A stretch of DNA of 64,000 nt, from the NCBI GenBank assembly GCA_019695035.1, contig JAIBAU010000011.1, forward strand, positions 1-64,000, in the 5' to 3' direction. The stretch is from Caulobacteraceae bacterium. Its GTDB lineage: Bacteria; Pseudomonadota; Alphaproteobacteria; Caulobacterales; Caulobacteraceae. Shown piece after piece: positions 23,855 to 41,807 of this stretch. Within the stretch, counting starts at the first letter, position 1. Each line of letters starts with the position of its first letter. The translations under genes were made by a program, and so were the position numbers. Below the pieces are notes generated by a model. The model was not told where the DNA came from. It saw nothing but the letters and a program-made list of their open reading frames with translations, and made no database searches.

Positions 23855-26800
23855 TCAGATCCAGAGGAAGTCGGAGGCGTCGACGGCCGACTCCAGCACG
23901 CCGTCTAGGGTAATGACGGTTCCGTTCGCCAGGGTGATGGTCGCCCAGCCGTTGATGTCGTGGCCAATGACCAGGTCCGAGAACTGGGTCGCGCCTGTCC
24001 CGATCAGACGGATCTTGTCGATACCGTTCTCGAAATCGGTGATGTGATCCGAACCGAGGTTCGAGTTGCCACTCCAGATGAACTGGTCGGTCCCCGCTCC
24101 ACCGCTCAGGGAGTCGCTGCCGGCGTCGCCATACAGCTTGTCGTTCCCCAGACCGCCCGACAGGGTGTCCGTTCCCGCGCCGCCCTGCAGCGTATCGTTG
24201 CCGTCGCCGCCATCCAGGGTGTCGTTGCCGTTAAGGCCGCGCAGGCTGTCGACGCCGCCGCCGCCCTGGAGGTTGTCGTTGCCGTCATAGCCGTCGACGA
24301 TCTCGTTGGCCGCGCTGCCGACGAAGGTGTCGTCGAAGTTGGTCAGGAGATAGCGCTCGATCGACGAGAAGGTGTCGCCCAGGGCGTCGCCGGTGTGCAC
24401 GTTGGTCAGGAGGTTCAGCGAGAGGCCCCCCGTCGCGGTGCGATAGTCGGCGACGTCCGTGCCCGCGCCGCCATTGAAGGCGTCCGCGCCCGCTCCCCCG
24501 ATGAGCAGGTCGTCGCCGTCGCCGCCGTTCAGGGTGTCGTCGCCGGCCGCGCCCGTGAGGGTGTCGTTGCCGATTCCGCCGCTCAGCACGTTGGCGCCGG
24601 ACGAACCCGTCAGCTGGTCGTCGAAGTTGGAGCCCGTGAGGTTCTCGATCGCCGACAGGGTGTCGGTGCCCGCGCCCAGGGTATTCTGGGCGGCGGAGGT
24701 CGCCAGGCTGACCTTCACCAGGCTTCCGGCCGACGAGTAGTCGGCCGTGTCGATGTCGGCCCCGCCGGTCAGCAGGTCGTTGCCGGCGCCGCCGATCAGG
24801 ATGTCGTTCCCCGCATCCCCGCGCAGGTCGTCGTTGCCGTCGCCGCCATTGAGGGTGTCCGCGCCGTTCTGACCGTCGACCCGCTCGTTCTCGGCGTTGC
24901 CCACGAAGGTGTCGCCGAAGTTGGACAGGATGAAGCGTTCGATCGACACGAAGGTGTCGCCCAGCGCGTCGCCGACGCCGAACAGCGCGTTCAGGCGATC
25001 GACACCGACGGCCGAGATGGCCGAACGGTAATCGACCAGGTCGGAGCCGGCTCCGCCGTCCACGGTGTCCGCCCCCGCGCCGCCGATGATCTGGTCGTCG
25101 CCGTCGTTGCCGTTGAGGACGTCGTCGCCGGCGTCGCCGTACAGCAGGTCGTTGTCGGCGCCGCCGTTGATGATGTCGGCGCCGTCGTTGCCGTGGATGT
25201 TGTCCGCCCCGGCGTCGCCCGAGACGGTGTCGTCGCCGGCCTCGCCGACGATGGTGTCGGCGCCGTCGCCGCCGAAGATGACGTCCGTGCCATCGCCGCC
25301 GCGCACGGTGTCGTTGCCGGCGCCGCCGTAGAGGGTGTCGTCGCCGAGCTCGCCGTTGAGGTTGTCGGCGCCCGCGCCCCCATCCAGGTAGTCGCCGCCA
25401 TCGCCGCCCTTGAGCGTGTCGTTGTCGTCGCCGCCATAGAGGAAATCGTCGCCCGCTTCGCCGAGCAGTTGGTCGGCCCCGGCGTCGCCATACTGGGTGT
25501 CGTTGTCGAGACCGCCCCGGATGACGTCGTCACCCGCGCCGCCGTGCTGTTCGTCGTTGCCGGCGTCGCCGTAGAGGGTGTCGTTGCCGTCGCCGCCGTC
25601 TTCCTCGTCGGCGCCCGCCCCGCCGCGCAGGATGTCGACGCCGGCGCCGCCCGACAGGATGTCGTCGCCGTTGTCGCCGCGCACGTCGTCGTTGCCGTCG
25701 CCGCCGTCGACCACGTCGTTGCCTTCGCCGCCCATCAGCAGGTCGTTGCCGAGGTCGCCGAACACCTGGTCGTCGCCATTCTCGCCGCGCGCGTCGTCAT
25801 CGCCGGCGCCGCCGTAGAGCGTGTCGGTCCCGTCGAAGCCGCGCAGGATGTCGTTGCCGTCGCCGCCGTCGAGGTAGTCGTTGCCGAGGTTCCCCTTGAG
25901 CGTGTCGGCGCCGTCGCCGCCGTAGAGGCTGTCGTCGCCCTGGTAGCCGTCGAGGGTGTCGGCCCCGGCGTTGCCGTAGAGTTCGTTGTTGCCGGCGGAG
26001 CCGATGACGTTGTCGTTGAAGGCGGATCCGAAGAAGTTCTCGATCCCGATCAGGGTGTCGAGACCGGCGCCGCCCGTGTTCTGGGCGGTGCCGATCCGCA
26101 TGTCGAGGGTGATGGCGCCGGACGCATCCCCGTAGTGGACGCTGTCGGTTCCATCGCCGCCGTTGAGGATGTCGTTGCCGAGGCCGCCGGCGAGCTGGTC
26201 GTTGCCGTCGCCCCCCAGCAGGCTGTCGTTGCCCGACCCGCCGTCGAGGGAGTCATTGTCCAGCCCGCCGTCCAGCGTATCGGTTCCATTGCCGCCCAGC
26301 AGCGTGTCGTCGCCGTCGCCGCCGTTGAGGGCGTCGTTGTCGTCGCCCCCGATCAGCAGGTCGAGGCCCGCCGCGCCGTTGAGGACGTCGTTGCCGCTGC
26401 GGCCCTCAAGCACGTTGTCGCCGCCGTCGCCGGTGAGGCTGTCCGACTGGCCGCCGCCGATCACGTTCTCAAAGCCGGAGATGGTGTCGGAGCCCGTGCC
26501 GGAGCTGAACGCCGTGCCGAGGGCGAGATTGACCGTCAGCTCGCGCTGGACGCCATCGAACGACAGGGTGTCGATGCCCGAGCCGCCGTCGAGGACGTCG
26601 TTGCCGTCGTTCTGTCCCGACGCGCCGTTCTGGTTGACATAGGTCTCCTGGATGACGTCGTCGCCCGCGCCGCCGGAAACGATGTCGGACCCCGCGCCGC
26701 CCTTGAGGGTGTCGCCGCCGCCGCTGCCGGTGATCTGGTCGTCGCCCGCGCCGCCGTCGACGAACACGCCTTCGATGCTGGTGATGGTGTCGGTCCCGCC

Positions 26801-29800
26801 CCGTCCGTCATCAATCGTGTGCGTCACACCCGAGATGTCGAAATCGGACATGTTCACGACGTTGGCGCTGGTGGCGTTGGCGACGTAGATCCGCAGGCGG
26901 TCCTCGCCCGCGCCGCCGTCGATCTGGTCGCTGCCTGCGCCGCCGCCGAGGATGTCGTTGCCGTCGTTGCCCAACAGGGTGTCGGCGCCGGACCCGTCGA
27001 AGATGATATCGTTGGCGTCGCCCCCGGACACGTAGGCCGACTGCTGATAGCCGCCGTAGAAGACCAGGTGCTCGACGCCGTCGCCATGGACTTCGAGGCC
27101 TGACGAGCCGACCGCGGTCAGGATGTCGCCGCTCAGCACGATGTTGACGTTGTCGACGACGTAGTAATCCCACTTCAGCAGGACGGTGTCGTCGCCAGCG
27201 CCGCCGTGGACCTGGTCCACGCCCGTCGATTCCGAATAGACGCCGCCCACATTGTGGTAGCCGATCATGTTGAACTGATCGTCGCCCTCGTCGCCCCACA
27301 GCTCCGACGAGCCAGAGGCGTCGATGATCAGGTCGTTGCCGAGGCCGCCGTGGATGGCGTTGGCGCCGTCGCCGCCGCTCAGCTGGTCGTCGCCCGTGCC
27401 GCCCGTCACCGTGTCGCCGAACGCCGTGCCGGTGAAGATCACCCGCTCCACCGAGATGATGGTGTCGGTGCCGCCGCGGCCGTCAGAGAAGTTGAATGTG
27501 CCGGACCCGCCGAACGCCGAGGCGTCGAAGGTCACCCCGGCGACCGCTCCGATATCGTCGAAGCGGAAGGAGGCCATGTCGAAGCCCGAGCCGCCGTTCA
27601 GGGTGTCGTTGCCCAGATCGCCGCGCAGATTGTCGAAGTCGGCGCCGCCCAGAAGCATGTCGTTGCCGTCGCCGCCGCGCAGGACGTCGGCGCCTTCGCC
27701 GCCGTCCAGGGTGTCGGCGCCGTCGTTGACGCCGCCGGCCTGGTTCGAGCCATTGGTCTCGCCGCCGATCAGCACGTCGTCGCCGGCGCCGCCGGTGAGG
27801 TTGTCCGCCCCGCCGCCGCCGAACAGGCTGTCGTTGTCGGCCCCGCCGTCCAGGGTGTCGGCGCCCTGGCCGCCCCTGAGGGTGTCGCGGCCCGCCAGTC
27901 CGCGCATGAGGTCGTCGCCGGCGCTGCCGGTGACATTGTCGTTGAAGGCGCTGCCGGTGACCTCGGCCTTCTCGAATCCGTTGACGGTGTCTGTGCCCAG
28001 CGGATTGGTGATGGCGATGTTGCCGGCGTTGGTGAGGGCCGACAGGTTGACGACCGCTCCCGAGGTCAGGCCGGCGTCGGAGAAGTCGAAGACCAGCGTG
28101 TCGACGCCGGCGCCGCCGATCAGGGTGTCCAGCCCGGCGTCGCCCTGGATCCGGTCATTGCCGTCGCCGCCATCGAGGGTGTCGGCGCCGTCCCCGCCAA
28201 TGAGCGTGTCGTTGCCGAGACCGCCGCTGATGTTGTCATCGCCGCCGGAGCCGTCCAGGCGGTTGTCCTGGTCGTTGCCGGTGATGGTGTCCGCCTGGGC
28301 GCCGCCCACGACGTTCTCGATGTTCTGGATGGTGTCGTTCACGCCGCCGACGCTGAAGGCGACGCCCAGCGCAAGGTTGATGGTCCACTCGCGCTCGGAT
28401 TCCATCGCCAGGGTGTCGATGCCCGCTCCGCCGTCCAGCAGGTCGCCGACGCTGATCTCGCCGCTGTTGTGCCGCAGGATGTCGTCGCCGTCGCCGGCGT
28501 GGACGACGTCGACGCCGGTGCCGTCCAGAATGGTGTCGTGGCCGGCGCTGCCGGTGATGGTGTCGTTGCCGCCCTCGGCGTCGATGAACACGCCTTCGAT
28601 CGACGAGATGATGTCGGTGCCGCCGGCGCCGTCGTCGATGGTCTGGGTGGCGCCCGTGACGTTGAACAGCGACAGGTCGAGGACGTTGTTGGTGTTCGAG
28701 TTATCGACCTTGATGTAGTAGCGGTCGTTGCCGGCGCCCCCGTTGACGATGTCGCCAACGCCCGCGCCGCCCCACAGGACGTCGTCGCCGCCGTTGCCGT
28801 TCACCGTGTCGACGCCCGCGCCCGCAATCAGCCCGTCGTCCAGGGTTCCGCCGTTCAGGGTGTCATCGCCTGAGCCGGAGAAGACCACGATCCGCTCGAT
28901 GGAAATGCCGGTCACGCCGAGCGTGCCGTCCGCCGTCGAGGCGCTGAGGGTGCCGTCGGCGTTCAGGATGACCGTCATGCCCGACGAGGTGTAGGAGCCC
29001 CATTTCAGCTCGACCTGGTCGACGCCCGCACCGCCGTTCACGGTGTCGTGGCCGCCCGCGAACGTGTAGTAGACGTAGGGCTGAACGCCCCCGCCCGACG
29101 GGTCGAAGCTGGCGTGGCTGAAGCTCGAGATCGAGATGACGTCGTTGCCGGAACCGCCGTTCAGCGTCGAGTCCCCGGCGAAGTCGATGATGCGGTCCGA
29201 GCCGGCGCCGCCGTCGGCGAAGTTGTTGCCGTCGTTGGTCGTGATCTGGTCGTCGCCCGAGGAGCCGGTCAGGTTGTCGTTGAATTCCGTCCCGGTGATG
29301 ACCGCCCGTTCGATCGAAATCAGGGTGTCGGTGCCGCCAAGGCCGTCGGAGATGTTGACCGTCGCGCCGCCGTTGATGGTCGCGGCGCTGAAGGTGACGC
29401 CCGAGGTGAGCCCGATCTGGTCGAAGCGCCAGGCCGCGAAGTCGAGGCCCGCGCCGCCGTCCAGGCTGTCGTTGCCGTAGTCGCCGCGCAGGTTGTCCGA
29501 GCCGACGCCGCCGGTGAGGGTGTCGTCGCTGTCGCCCCCGCGCAGGACGTCGTTGCCGGTCCCGCCGTCGATCACGTCGGCGCCGTCGCCGTCGCCGTGG
29601 TTGGTGTTGGTGTTGGTGGTGCCGGCGATGGTGTCGTCGCCGTCGCCGCCCTGGATGTTGTCGGCTCCGAGATTGCCCCGGAGGTTGTCGTTGCCGCCGA
29701 GGCCGCGGATCACATCGGCGCCCTTGGTGCCGGTGATGGCGTCGTTGAAGTTGGTGCCGGTGACGTCGCCCTGCTCGAAGCCCGAAACGGTGTCCGGGCC

Positions 29801-31881
29801 GAGGAAGCTGTTGACCGTGAAGGTGCCGGTCGTGTTGGCGAAGTTGAGGTTGATGCCGATGCCGGTGGTCAGGCCGAGGACCGAGAAGTCGTAGACGATG
29901 GTGTCGATGCCATTGCCGCCGGTCAGGGTGTCCGCGCCAAGACCGCCCTCGATGCGGTCATTGCCCTCGCCGCCGTTCAGGTTGTCTCCGCCGTCGCCGC
30001 CGATCAGGACGTCGTCGCCGTCATTGCCGACCAGGGTGTCGTTGGCCGAGCCGCCCTCCAGGCGGTTGTTCTGGGCGTCGCCCGTGATGGTGTCGGCGCC
30101 GGCGCCGCCGATCACGTTCTCGAAATTCGAGATGGTGTCAGTGCCGTTGGACACGCCCGTCACCAGACCGGTGGTCAGGTTGATGGTCATGTTGGTGCTG
30201 ACGCCCGCGAAGGACAGGGTGTCGATCCCCGCGCCGCCATTGAAGTTGTCGTTGCCGTCGGCGCTGAAATTGCCTGGCGTTGGCGCGGTTCCGATGACCA
30301 GGTCGTCGCCGTCGCCGGCGTTGACGATATCCGAGCCCAGGCCGGCGAGGATGGTGTCGTGGCCCGCGCTGCCGGTGATGTTGTCATCGCCGCCGCCGCC
30401 GTTGACGAACACGCCCTCGATGGAGGTGATGGTGTCCGTGCCGCCCAGGCCGTCGCTGACAGTGTGGGTCGAGCCGGAGACATCGAAGGTCGAGAGGTCG
30501 ATGACGTTCGCCCCGCTCGCGCCCGCGACAAAGAACTCGTAGCGGTCATTGCCCGCGCCGCCGTCCATCGTGTCGTCGCCGGCTCCGCCGCTGAGGATGT
30601 CGTTGCCCGCGCCCCCGGACAGGTTGTCGTTGTTGCCGTTGCCGTAGAGTTCGTCGTCGCCCGACCCGCCCGACAGGTTGTCGGCGCCGGCGCCGCCCAT
30701 CGCCTCGACCCGTTCGATCGAGATGCCGGTCACGGTCAGGTTGCCGTCGGCCGTCGAAGCGTTCAGCACGTCGCCCGAGAACGAAACCGTCACGGCCGAG
30801 GTGTTGTAGATGCTCCACCGCACCACCACCGTGTCCAGGCCCGAGCCGCCGTAGACGGTGTCGTGGCTGACGCCGACCGCATAGTAGGGCGCGTGGCCCA
30901 GGGCCAGGTAGGTGTGATCGTTGTCGTACAGGGTGATGCGGTCGTCGCCGGCGTCGCCGAACAAGGTCGAATTGCCGTTGGCGTTGTCAAAAATGACGTC
31001 GTTGCCGCCACCGCCGTGGATGACGTTGCTGCCGTTGAAGCCGGTGATCTGGTCGTCCCGCCGCTGCCGGTCAGGTTGTCGGCGAAGTCGGTGCCGGTGA
31101 TGATCACCCGCTCGATGCTGATCAGGGTGTCGGTGCCGCCGAGGCCATCCGAAATCGTCGCGTTGCCGTTCAGGCCGCCCGTCACCGCGGCGGCGCTGAA
31201 GGTCACGCCGGACGTGGCGCCGATCTGGTCGAAGCGGAACCCGGCGAAGTCGATGCCGGAACCGCCGTTCAGCGTGTCGTTGCCGTAGTCGCCGCGAAGG
31301 TTGTCGTTGTCATTGCCGCCGTTGAGGACGTCGTCGCCGTCGCCGCCACGCAGGACGTCGTTGCCGTCCTCGCCGTTGACCTGGTCGTTGCCGTCCCCGT
31401 CGCCGTGATTGGTGTTCGTGTTCACGCCGCCGGCCATCACGTCGTCGCCGACGCCGCCATACAGGGTGTCGGCGCCCAGGCCGCCCCGCATGTTGTCGCT
31501 GCCGGCGTAGCCGTTCAGGATGTCGGCGAAGCTGGTGCCGACGAGGGTGTCGTTGCCGGCGAAGATGGCGCCGAACAGAGCCGCCTCATCGTTGGCCGCG
31601 ATCGCCGCGACGATGGTCGCCGCACTCACCGACGTGACGTTGAAGACCATCGTGCCGGAACCGGTATTCACGGTGATCGAGGTGATGGTCCCTGCCGTGG
31701 GGAACCCGCTGGCGTCATAGGTCAGGCCGGTCCCATTGAAGACCCAGGTGGGCTGTCCGGCCGGCGTGATGGACCACTGCGTCGAGGTCTGGGTCACAAC
31801 CGTCGCGGTGTCCCAGGGATCGATATCGAAGATATTGAAATTGACGCCGGCGGTCGCTGCGGAAACAGAGAAGGTGGTCAT
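23855..31881 (-). CDS. Giant RTX (hemolysin-type calcium-binding repeat) secreted protein, with a one-base frameshift
   Basis: Reading from ATG 31881 (MTTFSVSAATAGVNFNIFDI) the frame is open to about 31057, where one base is missing; from there the next frame is open to the stop at 23855. Repaired, the protein is about 2,675 residues. N-terminal ~130 residues are non-repetitive. Then come three super-repeats (~600 residues each) of mixed beta cassettes and GGxGxDxLx nonapeptides, an almost uninterrupted nonapeptide tract (~470 residues, 24980-26380) and a C-terminal region with GADQ/TDQFIWSG..LGSDHITDFENG and a final DASDFLWI, the usual type I secretion signal style. No signal peptide. It should be exported by an ABC/HlyD/TolC system (none nearby) and fold with calcium outside the cell. 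Role could be S-layer, adhesin or matrix; no enzymatic domain was seen. Confidence 0.85.
24980..26380 (-). repeat. RTX nonapeptide tract
   Basis: About 1.4 kb encoding a near-continuous series of GGxGxDxLx-type calcium-binding nonapeptides (examples: GGDGNDTLYGDAGNDE, GGAGADNLNGELGDDT), interrupted once by a beta cassette near 26050-26120 (GDASGAITLDMRIGTAQN). The DNA itself is highly repetitive, which also raises the risk of assembly collapse here. Confidence 0.8.
26380..27765 (-). repeat. RTX super-repeat 3 (lacks last cassette)
   Basis: The third copy of the ~1.8-kb module. Cassettes a-d are visible in order: MASFRFDDIGAVAG, VLLKWDYYVVDN, LRIYVANATSANVV with GVFVDGGAGDD, and TLSFDGVQRELTVNL with GFENVIGG. 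The fifth cassette (xVxDFSxxGLT) seen in copies 1 and 2 is absent and the protein runs into the plain nonapeptide tract. Confidence 0.7.
27766..29625 (-). repeat. RTX super-repeat 2
   Basis: Second ~1.86-kb copy. Cassettes in order: FAAWRFDQIGLTSGVTFSAA, VELKWGSYTSSGMTV, YYIKVDNSNTNNVLDLS with GVFIDAEGGND, TLAMESEREWTINLALG with NIENVVGG, and TLVFDFSDAGLTSGAVV with GFEKAEVTGSAFND. The same landmarks lie 1.80-1.86 kb away in copies 1 and 3. Confidence 0.75.
29626..31425 (-). repeat. RTX super-repeat 1 (contains the frameshift)
   Basis: First ~1.8-kb copy, beginning at the NTNTNHGDGDG linker. Cassettes: FAGFRFDQIGATSGVTFSAA, VVVRWSIYNTSAVTV, YEFFVAGASGANVIDLS with GVFVNGGGGDD, TLSFAGVSTNMTINL with NFENVIGG, and TIVYDFSVLGLTTG with GFEQGDVTGTNFND. 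The one-base deletion at ~31057 falls just after the first cassette. Confidence 0.75.
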
Positions 31882-34464: not shown

Positions 34465-35157
34465 ATGGCTTCAAAGCCCCAGATCCTGCGGAACGTGCGG
34501 GCCGGTCGGGAGTCTATTCCACCGGGCCATGACGCACCGCGCCACCGGCATCTCCGCGCCTACGCCCTCGTTGTCGTGCGGGGCGCCGTCGCCCAGGCGA
34601 GCTACGCGGGGCGGGTGGTGGCCCGGTCCGGCGACGTCCTCCTGCAGCCGACCCTGGACTGCCACGCCAATGCGCTGCAGAGCGCCGGCGTGGACATCCT
34701 TCGCCTGCCGTGGGGCCGCGTAGAGGACCTTGGGGGATGCTACCGCCTCGCTGACCTGGACGAGGTGGTCCGCCTGGCCGAGCGCGACGCCCAGGAGGCG
34801 GGCCTGCGGCTGGCGGCCGAGATCGCCGCGGCCGCGCGCGGACCGTCGGCCAACGACTGGCCCGATCTCCTGGCCGCGGACATCTGCAGTGTCCAGGAGT
34901 TGAGAGCCTGGGCGGAGACCCGCGGGCTCCGGGCCGAAACTGTTTCGCGCGGATTCGCGCGCGCCTTCGGCGTCACCCCCGGTCGTTTCCGGGCCGAGCT
35001 CCAGGCGCGACGGGCATGGCTCAGGATCACCGGCTCGCGGGACCCCCTGGCGCGCATCGCCGCGGACACCGGCTACTGCAATCAGCCGCACATGTCGCGG
35101 GCCGTCAGCCGGCTGACCGGGGCCAGCCCGAACGTCTGGCGGTCACGACCCGCCTAG
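34465..35157 (+). CDS. AraC-family transcriptional regulator
   Basis: 230 residues. The N-terminal part (residues ~15-85) is a small cupin-like sensor (PPGHDAPRHRHLRAYALVV, GDVLLQPTLDCHANALQ). The C-terminal two-HTH AraC domain shows LRAWAETRGLRAETVSRGFARAFGVTPGRF in pieces and the second helix-turn-helix DPLARIAADTGYCNQPHMSRAVSRLTGASPNVWRS. It is divergent from the PhoD-like gene and convergent (4-base overlap) with the following membrane gene. Ligand and targets are unknown. Confidence 0.87.
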   Translation: MASKPQILRNVRAGRESIPPGHDAPRHRHLRAYALVVVRGAVAQASYAGRVVARSGDVLLQPTLDCHANALQSAGVDILRLPWGRVEDLGGCYRLADLDEVVRLAERDAQEAGLRLAAEIAAAARGPSANDWPDLLAADICSVQELRAWAETRGLRAETVSRGFARAFGVTPGRFRAELQARRAWLRITGSRDPLARIAADTGYCNQPHMSRAVSRLTGASPNVWRSRPA

Positions 35158-35681
35158 GCCGCCGCGGGATCGCGGCCTGTCTGCAGAATGCCGCGGGCGC
35201 GGATCCACATCTCGATACGGCTGACGACGAGCAGGCCGCCCGCGAACAGCATGAAGCCGATGTCCGTGACCCCGTGCGGGATACCGAACTGCTGCTCGTG
35301 CCCCTCCAGATAGCCCCGGAAGGCGTACCGCAGGCCGAACAGCACGAAGATGAACACGAGCCCCAAGGGCGAGGCCTGGGCCATCAGGCGGTCGGAGTCG
35401 GGGTCGCGGTGGATGTCGATGGTCTTGCCCCGCCACCAGCCGATGGCCGCGCCCGCCAGCGCGGTCGCGCCCAGCCCGGCAAGGACCATCGGCCCGAAGA
35501 CCGGATGGAACTGCATGCTGACGCCCCAGATTCCGAAGGCCAGCAGGGCCAACAGGATGACAGGGCCGATCCACATCAGGTCTGGATTCAGCGGCCGCGC
35601 CTGGCGATTCCGCAACAGGATGATGACCGCGGCCACGGCGATCCCGATGAGCGGCGTCAGATGCTGGACGTCCGTCTGCAT
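35154..35681 (-). CDS. Integral membrane protein, CcdC/DUF1453-like
   Basis: 175 residues with about five hydrophobic segments: TPLIGIAVAAVIILLRNRQAR at the N-terminus, WIGPVILLALLAFGIWGV, FGPMVLAGLGATALAGAAIGWWRGK, PLGLVFIFVLFGLRYAFRGY and TDIGFMLFAGGLLVVSRIEMWIRAR. The RNRxARP and GWWRGKTIDIHRDPDSDRLMAQASP motifs recall the CcdC/DUF1453 membrane family. Function unknown. It follows the fumarylacetoacetase-like gene by only two bases, so it is translationally close. Confidence 0.6.
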   Translation of the reverse strand: MQTDVQHLTPLIGIAVAAVIILLRNRQARPLNPDLMWIGPVILLALLAFGIWGVSMQFHPVFGPMVLAGLGATALAGAAIGWWRGKTIDIHRDPDSDRLMAQASPLGLVFIFVLFGLRYAFRGYLEGHEQQFGIPHGVTDIGFMLFAGGLLVVSRIEMWIRARGILQTGRDPAAA

Positions 35682-38604: not shown

Positions 38605-40302
38605 TCACCCCAGGCGCCAGTTCACCGGCACCCGCACCTGCGCTCCCTCGACCGAACGGCCGTCGACGGTCGCCTGCATGCGGAAGAATTGCATGATGGC
38701 GATAGTGGCCTCGCCGAAGCCCGCGCCGGCCGGGCTTTCGCTGACCACGACGCAGCGCGTCAGCGTCCCCTCGCGGGTCACCTGGCACTGGACCATGGCC
38801 TGACCGTTCAGTTCCTGGTCTCGCGCCCGGGCCGGATAGTACTGCTCCAGTTCTGCGCCGGTGGGGCGTTGGACCCAGACGGGGTTGGTGATCCGAGCGC
38901 GCGCGTCGGAGCCGCCCTGCACGGGCGCCGGCGGTGCGGGGACGACGATCGGCGGCCCCCCGTACTCCCGCCGCTCCTCCCTCGGCACTGTCTGGATGAC
39001 CAGCGGCGGAGGCGCTCCGGCCGACGGCGGCGCCGGGCGAGGCCGGGGCGGGTCGCCGAAGGTGATGGTTATGCGGATGCTGGTGTCCTCGAGGGGCTCG
39101 CCCTCCCGCGACCAGGGGTCCAGACGGTACAGCTTGGCGACCTGCTGGGCGGCGCGGCCGAAGCCGTAGCCCGCGGGTTGCTCGGACTCGATCTCGCAAG
39201 CGGCGAAGCGGCCTTCCTTGCCCACGGTGCAGGTCATGGTCACGCGCGGCTGCTCGGACATGCGGCCGACCCCGGCCGGATAGGCAGCGTCGATTTCGGC
39301 CGATGTCGGGCGGTGCAGCCAGTTGGGGGTGATCGGCCCGCCGGGCGGCGAAATCTCGTCGTAGAGCAGGAAGTTCTCCAGCGCGTCGAACTGGTAGAAG
39401 GTTTCCGCCACGTCCGTCGCTTCGGCGTCCAGCTGCAGCCGGCGGGTGACCGGGCCGTAGTCCACCTCCGGAATGTTGTCGTCGATGTCGTCGAAGGCGG
39501 CCTGCATCCATTGCCACAGCTGCCTGCGGGTGGCGGGCGAGGCTCGAAGCGCGCCCAGCAGCGCGGCCTCATCGACGCCGGATCCGGCGAAATAGTCGAG
39601 CGCGACGACGCGGATGGCGTGAGCGGCGTAGAGGCTCTCCGTGAACTCGATGTGGCTGCGGTGCTCCGGATCGCACTTGGCCAGGGCCCGTTCGTAGGTG
39701 CCTTGCCGCTTGTAGGTATCGACCACCTCGTCGATGCGGACGCGGATCGCCAGCACGTCGCGGACCTTGTTGCGCGCACCCTCGCCGATCTCGCGCCACA
39801 TGCAGTCCCCGACGTCTGCGTAGGGGGACACGCGCGCCGCCGGAATGGGCGGGTTCGGTGCGGCGGGCCGGCTCGTGGTCGGGGCCGCCTCGGGCTTCGG
39901 CGGCGGCGGCGGGGCGGAGGGCGTCGGCGCGTCGCAACGCTTGCGCGTCACCCCTGAAGCGCCCTCGGTCAGGCTGGAACCATCGGCGGACAGACTGAGA
40001 CGCACCGGGCGCGTCACCACCGCGGCTCCACCGCCGGGGCTGGTTCGCACGACAATCTCGACATCGCGGTCGCCGAGCGCCCTCACCTCGGTGATTGGAC
40101 CGGACGCGTCCGGCAGCGAGAGGTGGTCGGCCCCAACCTCGATCACATCCACGCCCCGGCCGAAGCAGCGGGCTCCGGGCGCGGCCCAGCGGCCGAAGAA
40201 CTGGGCGGGCGGCGCCGCGGGCGCATCGGCGGCCCGGGAGGGCTGGGCGTCGGTCAACGCCGCGGCGGCGATCGCGCCCGCCGCCAAAATCAAAGTCCGC
40301 AC
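38605..40302 (-). CDS. Exported protein with a shared Cys domain and two TonB-C-like domains
   Basis: 565 residues from GTG 40302, chosen for GGTGGGG upstream and the signal peptide that follows (VRTLILAAGAIAAAALTDAQ). Layout: a small beta domain (~30-125), a Pro-rich linker, a Cys-containing helical domain (~165-310, VGDCMWREIGEG..ALAKCDPEHRSHIEF), then two TonB C-terminal-like repeats: CTVGKEGRFAACEIESEQPA..AAQQVAKLYRLDPW and CQVTREGTLTRCVVVSESPAGAGFGEATIAIMQFFRM, separated by a Pro linker. Such TonB_C-like modules occur in periplasmic proteins that are not true energy transducers; no TM anchor is seen beyond the signal. The helical domain recurs in the next gene. Confidence 0.65.
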   Translation of the reverse strand: MRTLILAAGAIAAAALTDAQPSRAADAPAAPPAQFFGRWAAPGARCFGRGVDVIEVGADHLSLPDASGPITEVRALGDRDVEIVVRTSPGGGAAVVTRPVRLSLSADGSSLTEGASGVTRKRCDAPTPSAPPPPPKPEAAPTTSRPAAPNPPIPAARVSPYADVGDCMWREIGEGARNKVRDVLAIRVRIDEVVDTYKRQGTYERALAKCDPEHRSHIEFTESLYAAHAIRVVALDYFAGSGVDEAALLGALRASPATRRQLWQWMQAAFDDIDDNIPEVDYGPVTRRLQLDAEATDVAETFYQFDALENFLLYDEISPPGGPITPNWLHRPTSAEIDAAYPAGVGRMSEQPRVTMTCTVGKEGRFAACEIESEQPAGYGFGRAAQQVAKLYRLDPWSREGEPLEDTSIRITITFGDPPRPRPAPPSAGAPPPLVIQTVPREERREYGGPPIVVPAPPAPVQGGSDARARITNPVWVQRPTGAELEQYYPARARDQELNGQAMVQCQVTREGTLTRCVVVSESPAGAGFGEATIAIMQFFRMQATVDGRSVEGAQVRVPVNWRLG

Positions 40303-40447
40303 GTCCCCACCCCGGTATTGCAACGCCAGATAGAGACGCCCTGCTCGCGCCGCGTGCAAGCGTCAGATGGGCTTACAGTGCGCTCGGGGCGCCCAAATCG
40401 GTGAATGCCTCATCGACTGCGGCGCCGCGAGCACGGTTACCGCCGCC

Positions 40448-41263
40448 TCACCAGGCGTCGATCTGCTGGTAGATCAGGACGTTGTGAATGGCTTCCGCCT
40501 GGAAATAGAGCTGCGCGTAGCGCGCCCTGGGATCGCCGCTCAGCATGTGCAACCGGGTCAGGTAGGGGGTCCAGTCGACCGGGGCCGCGTCCGTAGCATT
40601 GCGCAGCACCGCAATGGTTCGGGTCTCGAGCGCCGCGCGCGTCGCCGGCAGGGCGGCCATGGCCTGGCGCATGGACGTTTCGGAAATCTGGTTCAGCGCC
40701 AGATGGTCCCGCGCCGCGACCCGCATGGCCCAGGCGGGGATGATGGTGTCGGCGACGGATGCATGGGCTGCGTGGTCGGGATCGCACTTGGCCAGCGCGG
40801 CCGCATAGGTGGGCTCCGACTGCATGTTCTGGCGCGTGACCTGCATTGACGCGCCGATGCGCAGGGTCGCCGCCACGACCTGCTGGCCGTGCAGACCGAT
40901 GTTCTCCCACACGCACTGGCCGACACCTATCAGCGCGTCCTCGCGCAACCGGGCGAGGCGCGGCGGCGCGACGGCGCCGAAATCGCGGAGCGCCTCGGCG
41001 ATTCCGAAAACTCGCTGCTCGCCCGCACGCAGGGCCGGGTCGGCCCCGGTCCGCGCGGCTCGCTCCAGGACCCGGGCGCGATCCGCGGGCGACAGGGGAG
41101 CCGGGTTGACGATTTCGCAGTCCGTCAGGGTCGCGCCTGCGCCCACGGTGCAGCGAACCGCGATGGTTGCCGATGGAGCCGGAGTCGCCGTCGGCTGGGC
41201 CTGACTGGCCGTGGCCGCCAGCAGAGCCGTCAGGCTGAGACCTGCCTGGAGGAACCCGCGCAT
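40448..41263 (-). CDS. Exported protein sharing a Cys helical domain with its neighbour
   Basis: 271 residues, signal peptide MRGFLQAGLSLTALLAATASQA. Residues ~30-75 resemble the core of a TonB-C-like domain (VRCTVGAGATLTDCEIVNPA). From ~110 on it parallels the middle of the neighbouring 565-residue protein: VGQCVWENIGLHG, TYAAALAKCDPDHAAHASVAD, LPATRAALETR and QAEAIHNVLIYQQID align with VGDCMWREIGEG, TYERALAKCDPEHRSHIEFTE, SPATRRQLWQW and QFDALENFLLYDEIS. Domain order is permuted between the two. Function unknown; periplasmic by its signal. Confidence 0.6.
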   Translation of the reverse strand: MRGFLQAGLSLTALLAATASQAQPTATPAPSATIAVRCTVGAGATLTDCEIVNPAPLSPADRARVLERAARTGADPALRAGEQRVFGIAEALRDFGAVAPPRLARLREDALIGVGQCVWENIGLHGQQVVAATLRIGASMQVTRQNMQSEPTYAAALAKCDPDHAAHASVADTIIPAWAMRVAARDHLALNQISETSMRQAMAALPATRAALETRTIAVLRNATDAAPVDWTPYLTRLHMLSGDPRARYAQLYFQAEAIHNVLIYQQIDAW

Positions 41264-41330
41264 ACGCCCACTCTCCCGCTCGAACCGGCGCAGGGTGCTG
41301 GACCGTCGCGGCGAGTCAAGCGGCGCGGGC

Positions 41331-41807
41331 TCAGTCGGCGTTGGGCCAGCCGTATCCGGGGACGATGCTGACCAGGGCGGTGGTGTCGATCAGGTCGGTC
41401 ACCCCCGAGCCGCAGCTCGAACGGGCGGCGTTGGCGGCTCCCAGGGCGGCGCGACTGATCACGGTCCACTGGTTCGCCGGCGACAGGCCCTCGAGATCAG
41501 CGGGCTTGACCACCCGGGCGGTCATGCGCCCGCAACCCCGCACCGCCGCCAGCGCCCTCAGCTCGCTATCGGTGCGGCGCACGGACAGCACCAGGTCGCC
41601 CGAATGATACCCGGCCTCGCAGGCGTGTGGCTCGCAGCGGGCGCGGCCGGCCGCCAAGGTCTGGCCCACCGCCCATTGACGCTCGGGCAGCTGGAAGAGG
41701 TAATCCGGGCGCGGCGCGGTGGACTGCGCCGACGCCAGGCCTGCAAATGCGAGCTCGGCCGCCATGATGGCCGCCAGTGCAAAGCTCGCCCCTCGAACCC
41801 CGCTCAT
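41331..41807 (-). CDS. Exported protein of unknown function
   Basis: 158 residues with a signal peptide (MSGVRGASFALAAIMAAELAFAGLASAQ). The mature part holds five Cys (RCEPHAC, RGCGRM, SSCGSG) that may pair in the periplasm, and ends VPGYGWPNAD. It does not share the helical Cys domain of its two downstream neighbours, but is exported like them and lies 67 bases upstream on the same strand, so it may be the first gene of that group. Confidence 0.55.
   Translation of the reverse strand: MSGVRGASFALAAIMAAELAFAGLASAQSTAPRPDYLFQLPERQWAVGQTLAAGRARCEPHACEAGYHSGDLVLSVRRTDSELRALAAVRGCGRMTARVVKPADLEGLSPANQWTVISRAALGAANAARSSCGSGVTDLIDTTALVSIVPGYGWPNAD

Follow-up and report, generated by a model that had tools for sequence, protein, structure and literature searches.

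The stretch of DNA analysed here (the window, 64,000 nucleotides from a Caulobacteraceae bacterium) encodes on its minus strand two adjacent exported proteins, P0001 and P0002, that have in common a Cys-containing domain of ~155 residues (Table 1). A GC content of ~69%, the genes present, and the way sizes are distributed among related genera fit a placement in this alphaproteobacterial family. The original prediction held that the two neighbours are related over this region, and this is borne out by a BLASTP alignment in which 52 of 157 positions are identical (33%, E 2e-22) and by the presence in both copies of the three motifs on which it was based, VGDCMW/VGQCVW, TYERALAKCDPEH/TYAAALAKCDPDH, and ALENFLLYDEI/AIHNVLIYQQI. 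Adjoining P0002 is a third gene, P0003, for which neither Pfam nor NCBIfam gave a family match.

Table 1. Coordinates of the genes and modules of the P0001-P0003 locus in the window.
Feature	Positions	Strand	Basis
P0001, exported multidomain protein, 565 aa from GTG at 40302	38605..40302	-	sequence, Pfam, model
P0001 probable signal peptide (MRTLILAAGAIAAAALTDAQPSRA)	40231..40302	-	sequence and hydropathy
P0001 N-terminal beta-rich domain, residues ~54-142, Cys pair C65/C142	39934..40200	-	low-confidence model
Cys domain of P0001, residues 183-338, C186-x-W188 ... C229	39346..39813	-	BLASTP, alignment, profile
P0001 first TonB_C, residues 345-435	39055..39327	-	Pfam, hhalign, identity comparison
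P0001 Pro-rich linker, predicted disordered	38893..39054	-	model, similarity to the cell's TonB linker
P0001 second TonB_C, residues 490-584	38608..38892	-	Pfam; 66% identity to own-cell TonB CTD
P0002, exported protein, 271 aa: signal peptide, TonB_C hairpin, Cys domain	40448..41263	-	sequence, hhalign, model
P0002 probable signal peptide (MRGFLQAGLSLTALLAATASQA)	41198..41263	-	sequence only
P0002 TonB_C-like beta-hairpin, residues 31-57, C38/C49	41093..41173	-	hhalign; strand pair in model
Cys domain of P0002, residues 114-268, C117-x-W119 ... C160, predicted all-helical	40460..40924	-	BLASTP, alignment, profile, model
P0003, small exported Cys-containing protein adjoining P0002	41331..41807	-	association only

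The preferred initiation codon of P0001 is the GTG at 40302 (MRTLILAAGAIAAAAL...), which was judged a better start than a TTG codon at 40359. The modules of the protein are arranged in the order signal peptide, beta domain, Cys domain, TonB_C, Pro-rich linker, and TonB_C. At the N-terminus, the 19-residue hydropathy maximum is 1.54, as compared to 2.37 for the anchor of the cell's TonB, and this end of P0001 probably has the shape of a signal peptide instead of the strong membrane anchor of TonB. No family match was found for the beta-rich N-terminal domain. Both of the TonB-C-like modules that had been placed after the Cys domain are recovered by Pfam (PF03544, TonB_C, E 1.6e-17) in two stretches, each C-terminal to the Cys domain. 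An AlphaFold model made from a two-row alignment is of low confidence (pLDDT 56.6), and orders the protein as a beta-rich N-domain, helices, TonB_C, a disordered linker, and TonB_C.

In the case of P0002, the TonB-C-like stretch that had been proposed to precede the Cys domain is present in part. A hairpin of 27 residues scores 30.8 by hhalign against a TonB_C profile built from the window genome and one relative, the maximum for shuffled sequences being 19.1 (0/200), and it keeps both TonB_C cysteines while covering about one third of the TonB_C domain. A complete TonB_C was not found in P0002, as residues 31-57 alone align, and Pfam and NCBIfam detect TonB_C in P0001 only. The AlphaFold model of P0002, also from a two-row alignment (pLDDT 66.7), starts with a beta-beta-alpha-beta arrangement that is followed by about nine helices, and the Cys domain is predicted to be all-helical and held by one Cys pair. 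There are eight cysteines in P0001 and four in P0002, with exactly one pair per module, a distribution that fits an oxidising compartment and is consistent with a periplasmic location and disulfide bonds in both proteins.

A match of the Cys region to an already described family was looked for in Pfam, NCBIfam, and PHROGs, and none was seen. Neither the window copies nor eight relatives match Pfam or NCBIfam above cut-off over this domain, PHROGs gave no meaningful match for P0001 or P0002, and a PDB sequence search returned matches that were to TonB C-terminal domains (CTDs) only or were unconvincing, with none to the Cys domain. Likewise, Foldseek with the weak models (such as P0002 at pLDDT 66.7) gave nothing at E<0.001, with TM values of ~0.1-0.2 against the PDB and viral libraries, and a limited literature search found no description of the domain. 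The claim of a new domain is thus supported within the databases searched, and building a profile from the two copies, as had been proposed, did reach further members. Iterated profile searches over whole genomes led from the window copies to standalone proteins and to an alignment of 25 rows, which has the second Cys in every row and the C-x-W in nearly all. A profile of 23 relatives without the window proteins scores P0002 at 26.2 bits and P0001 at 24.1 bits, and the highest of 1000 shuffles at 7.6; this control is strong but not fully independent because these relatives came by iteration from the P0001/P0002 pair. In a direct hhalign comparison, the window pair matches eight standalone proteins with a probability of 94.7 (E 5.8e-8).

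The larger family consists of small exported proteins, most of them standalone and ~180-200 residues long, with an almost invariant C-x-W...C signature. It is defined here by a signal peptide, C-x-W, a second Cys ~40 residues on, and a helical domain, and the Cys domain of P0001 and P0002 belongs to the family so defined. The standalone proteins have the same ~155-residue helical domain, signal peptide, and Cys-Trp-Cys signature as the window copies, but unlike P0001 are mostly without TonB_C. In addition, the window copies carry a VGxCxWxxIG...ALxxCDP pattern that they have in common with a fused protein of another genome (G241, see below). With the 25-row profile, members were found in at least 45 of 388 genomes, and at least 10 of 22 genera, of a sample of the window's taxonomic family, the Caulobacteraceae; in the large samples 9-12 candidates were scored per genome, such that genome counts are lower bounds. 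Among the matches listed for 289 genomes across the class, all but one are from the window genome and no credible member lies outside it, the remaining match (G979/L104) being marginal and without the C-x-W...C signature. Profile searches of genome contigs (two scans) and a viral scan revealed no relative, nor did plasmid and phage searches. As far as was searched, the family appears confined to one bacterial family. Other candidates were discarded, namely the weak first-round matches L016/L019 (a peptidase), L030-L032, and L047-L049, which were considered false once their frames were read, and a 458-aa frame in G134 that overlaps part of the profile only and is probably non-coding.

Two unusual arrangements were seen among the relatives. 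Genome G029 (genus g15; L066:5665-8072 and L069) has three tandem family genes, with one two-domain protein of 383 aa. In another tandem member (L034/L052, G021:C20:196485-196790), the domain match ends about two thirds in and the frame continues with unrelated sequence, in what looks like a frameshift, either real or an assembly error.

TonB is the protein that powers outer-membrane transporters. In P0001, residues 443-584, a stretch of 142 residues made up of linker and CTD, have 61% identity to the protein encoded at C3:9257-9979, which is the cell's TonB, encoded after exbB and exbD in an exbB-exbD-tonB operon. For the CTD alone, the second TonB_C of P0001 is 66% identical to TonB, whereas the first and second TonB_C modules of P0001 are 31% identical to each other, and the first is divergent (31-36% identity to the best TonB_C domains of the cell). 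Much of the Pro-rich linker preceding the CTD is also similar to that of TonB. At these levels of identity, the linker and second module appear to have been copied recently from the end of the cell's TonB. P0001 is like TonB (PF03544 TonB_C, TIGR01352) in its above-cut-off TonB_C modules, of which it has two, and in the Pro-rich spacer before the CTD, but it differs by having two CTDs, an added beta domain and Cys domain, and a location outside the exbB-exbD operon, which is on contig C3 while P0001 is on C31. Linkage of tonB to exbB and exbD is not a universal requirement. Judged by sequence and position, none of the genes close by encodes a recognisable TonB-dependent receptor, which speaks against a receptor-linked role. 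As to the periplasmic complex linked to energy transduction or signalling that had been suggested, P0001 itself is unlikely to transduce energy, because it probably lacks the strong anchor of TonB and lies outside the exb operon; the near-copy of the TonB C-terminus supports a link to TonB-dependent receptors.

Fusions of the Cys domain to TonB_C occur in four genomes from three genera, according to a census of 75 different open frames that encode the Cys domain; several of these are window copies cut at different locus ends. The fused members are P0001, P0005 of G003 (cut by a contig end), L129:7902-9230 of G241, and L130:4730-6103 of G273; a second family-level scan with a fused-type profile found no further genome. 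The G241 protein, from another genus, has a TonB_C module on both sides of the Cys domain (TonB_C-Cys-TonB_C), and in the G273 protein the order is Cys-TonB_C, preceded by a degenerate N-terminus. A tree of 69 domains places P0001 and P0002 as sisters (100/95), grouped with the three fused relatives; this grouping is weak (82/22, 76% of bootstraps), and in none of 500 label shuffles were the fused forms as clustered. The module order of P0001 and P0002 had been described as permuted. Since one relative is a TonB_C-Cys-TonB_C sandwich, and given the grouping in the tree, the difference is more plausibly the outcome of unequal loss and gain following a tandem duplication. The simplest history would be one fusion leading to a sandwich, followed by tandem duplication in the window's lineage, after which P0002 may have lost its C-terminal TonB_C completely and its N-terminal TonB_C for the most part, and P0001 may have had its N-terminal TonB_C replaced by the beta domain; the order of events is that which the present arrangements suggest.

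The reading that we prefer, although tentatively and at somewhat less than even odds, is that P0001 acts in the periplasm as a soluble adaptor or competitor, docking on TonB boxes. P0001 and P0002 would be secreted proteins of the envelope that arose by tandem duplication and have an undescribed all-helical Cys domain at their core, with P0001 presenting a TonB-type CTD on a flexible Pro-rich linker, without the membrane anchor of TonB. With this end, P0001 would engage outer-membrane receptors at their TonB box, or else some other partner of TonB_C, and its Cys domain would bind a client or partner, the effect being to tune receptor access rather than to power it. A point against this reading is that the role would be dispensable in most relatives, as the fusion is found in four genomes only. 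A bolder version, which we consider unlikely, is that an undescribed periplasmic family has captured the receptor-binding end of TonB, generating soluble, anchorless mimics that regulate or redirect TonB-dependent receptors. Going by the title, Howard et al. 2001 (cited in PMC9769762) reportedly found that the TonB periplasmic domain made in the periplasm inhibits FecA and FhuA transport; such mimics, if real, would be a natural version of the laboratory finding that the free periplasmic domain blocks transport. The searches define an exported domain family that is restricted to one lineage and has no entry in the databases examined, and that in P0001 is fused to a near-copy of the end of the host's TonB, apparently without the anchor. 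Provided that this end has kept its binding to TonB boxes, the cell would produce a soluble competitor or adaptor of TonB by which outer-membrane transport could be controlled. Soluble C-terminal fragments of TonB do bind receptors (reviewed in PMC11658791).

TonB_C modules are also found in proteins without a transport role, which counts against docking on receptors. TonB_C could be a general envelope-binding module that contacts peptidoglycan or another periplasmic protein, in a TolA- or SjdR-like manner, and the two proteins would then serve the cell wall or envelope structure, independently of TonB receptors, an explanation that we rate as a serious rival, though rather less likely than not. 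Anabaena SjdR is a TonB_C-bearing cell-wall protein outside the canonical transporter role, as may be the case for P0001, but it is described as exceptionally short, unlike P0001, and the comparison made here is one of the shared TonB_C name (PMC8262864). A TolA-like role has also been proposed for TonB2 (PMC8597729). Consistent with a general module, the first TonB_C of P0001 and the TonB_C of its relatives are far from the cell's TonB, and most family members are without any TonB_C; the second module and linker of P0001, however, closely copy the transport TonB, suggesting that TonB-type binding was retained. SjdR is not known to have a Cys domain.

The genomic neighbourhood bears on two further alternatives to a soluble adaptor or competitor. 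G003 and G143 both retain homogentisate/tyrosine genes, an 86-aa gene, FAH, and a gene of CcdC type. In G003 (L163), the 86-aa gene directly follows hmgA and P0001-P0003 are absent from the syntenic homogentisate locus, so P0003-P0002-P0001 (apparently with udk) are an extra block in the window, and this block (38605-41807) may be a lineage-specific insertion or may have been lost in G003. Its absence there, the patchy distribution, and the partial TonB_C of P0002 would fit a young, fast-evolving insertion of duplicated and decaying fusion pieces without strong function. Two observations speak against this account, which we rate as improbable: the reading frames of P0001 and P0002 are both long and show an ordinary codon usage, and each copy has retained the Cys-Trp-Cys signature together with a single Cys pair in every module, even though the two are only 33% identical. 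It is also quite doubtful that the family is a periplasmic redox or disulfide family, with a functional C-x-W...C pair and with CcdC (DUF1453) or ATP synthase neighbours pointing to respiratory-chain assembly. The near invariance of the signature over 25 members agrees with such a role, as does a single-copy gene for a CcdC/DUF1453-type membrane protein directly upstream of the fused gene in G241 (L129:7363-7887) and G273 (L130:4229-4720) and 2.9 kb from P0001 in the window (35157-35681). Moreover, 12 genomes from three genera, among them the genome of the window, carry standalone members next to the F0 ATP synthase operon. However, there is no CXXC motif, and two cysteines ~40 residues apart are typical of a structural disulfide. 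The window CcdC gene neighbours FAH, as in G003 and G143, and its nearness to P0001 may be accidental, which weakens CcdC as a conserved partner of the fused gene. G241 and G273 have a common neighbourhood that may represent one event, and neighbourhood is not function.

Some smaller features of these loci can be recorded. The F0-adjacent standalone genes (L063:7613-9397 of G000:C1, L064, L065, and L068) lie mostly between the operon and gcvPB, often as tandem pairs, and in the window's own genome a small exported Cys-containing protein without a Pfam match is encoded between two of them (L063:8322-8831). In G143, the CcdC-type gene is followed by another TonB_C-bearing frame (L162:13168-13617). 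Elsewhere in the window, positions 23855-30964 are taken up by an exceptionally long open frame (>2300 aa) that is strongly AT-skewed and may encode a large surface or repeat protein.
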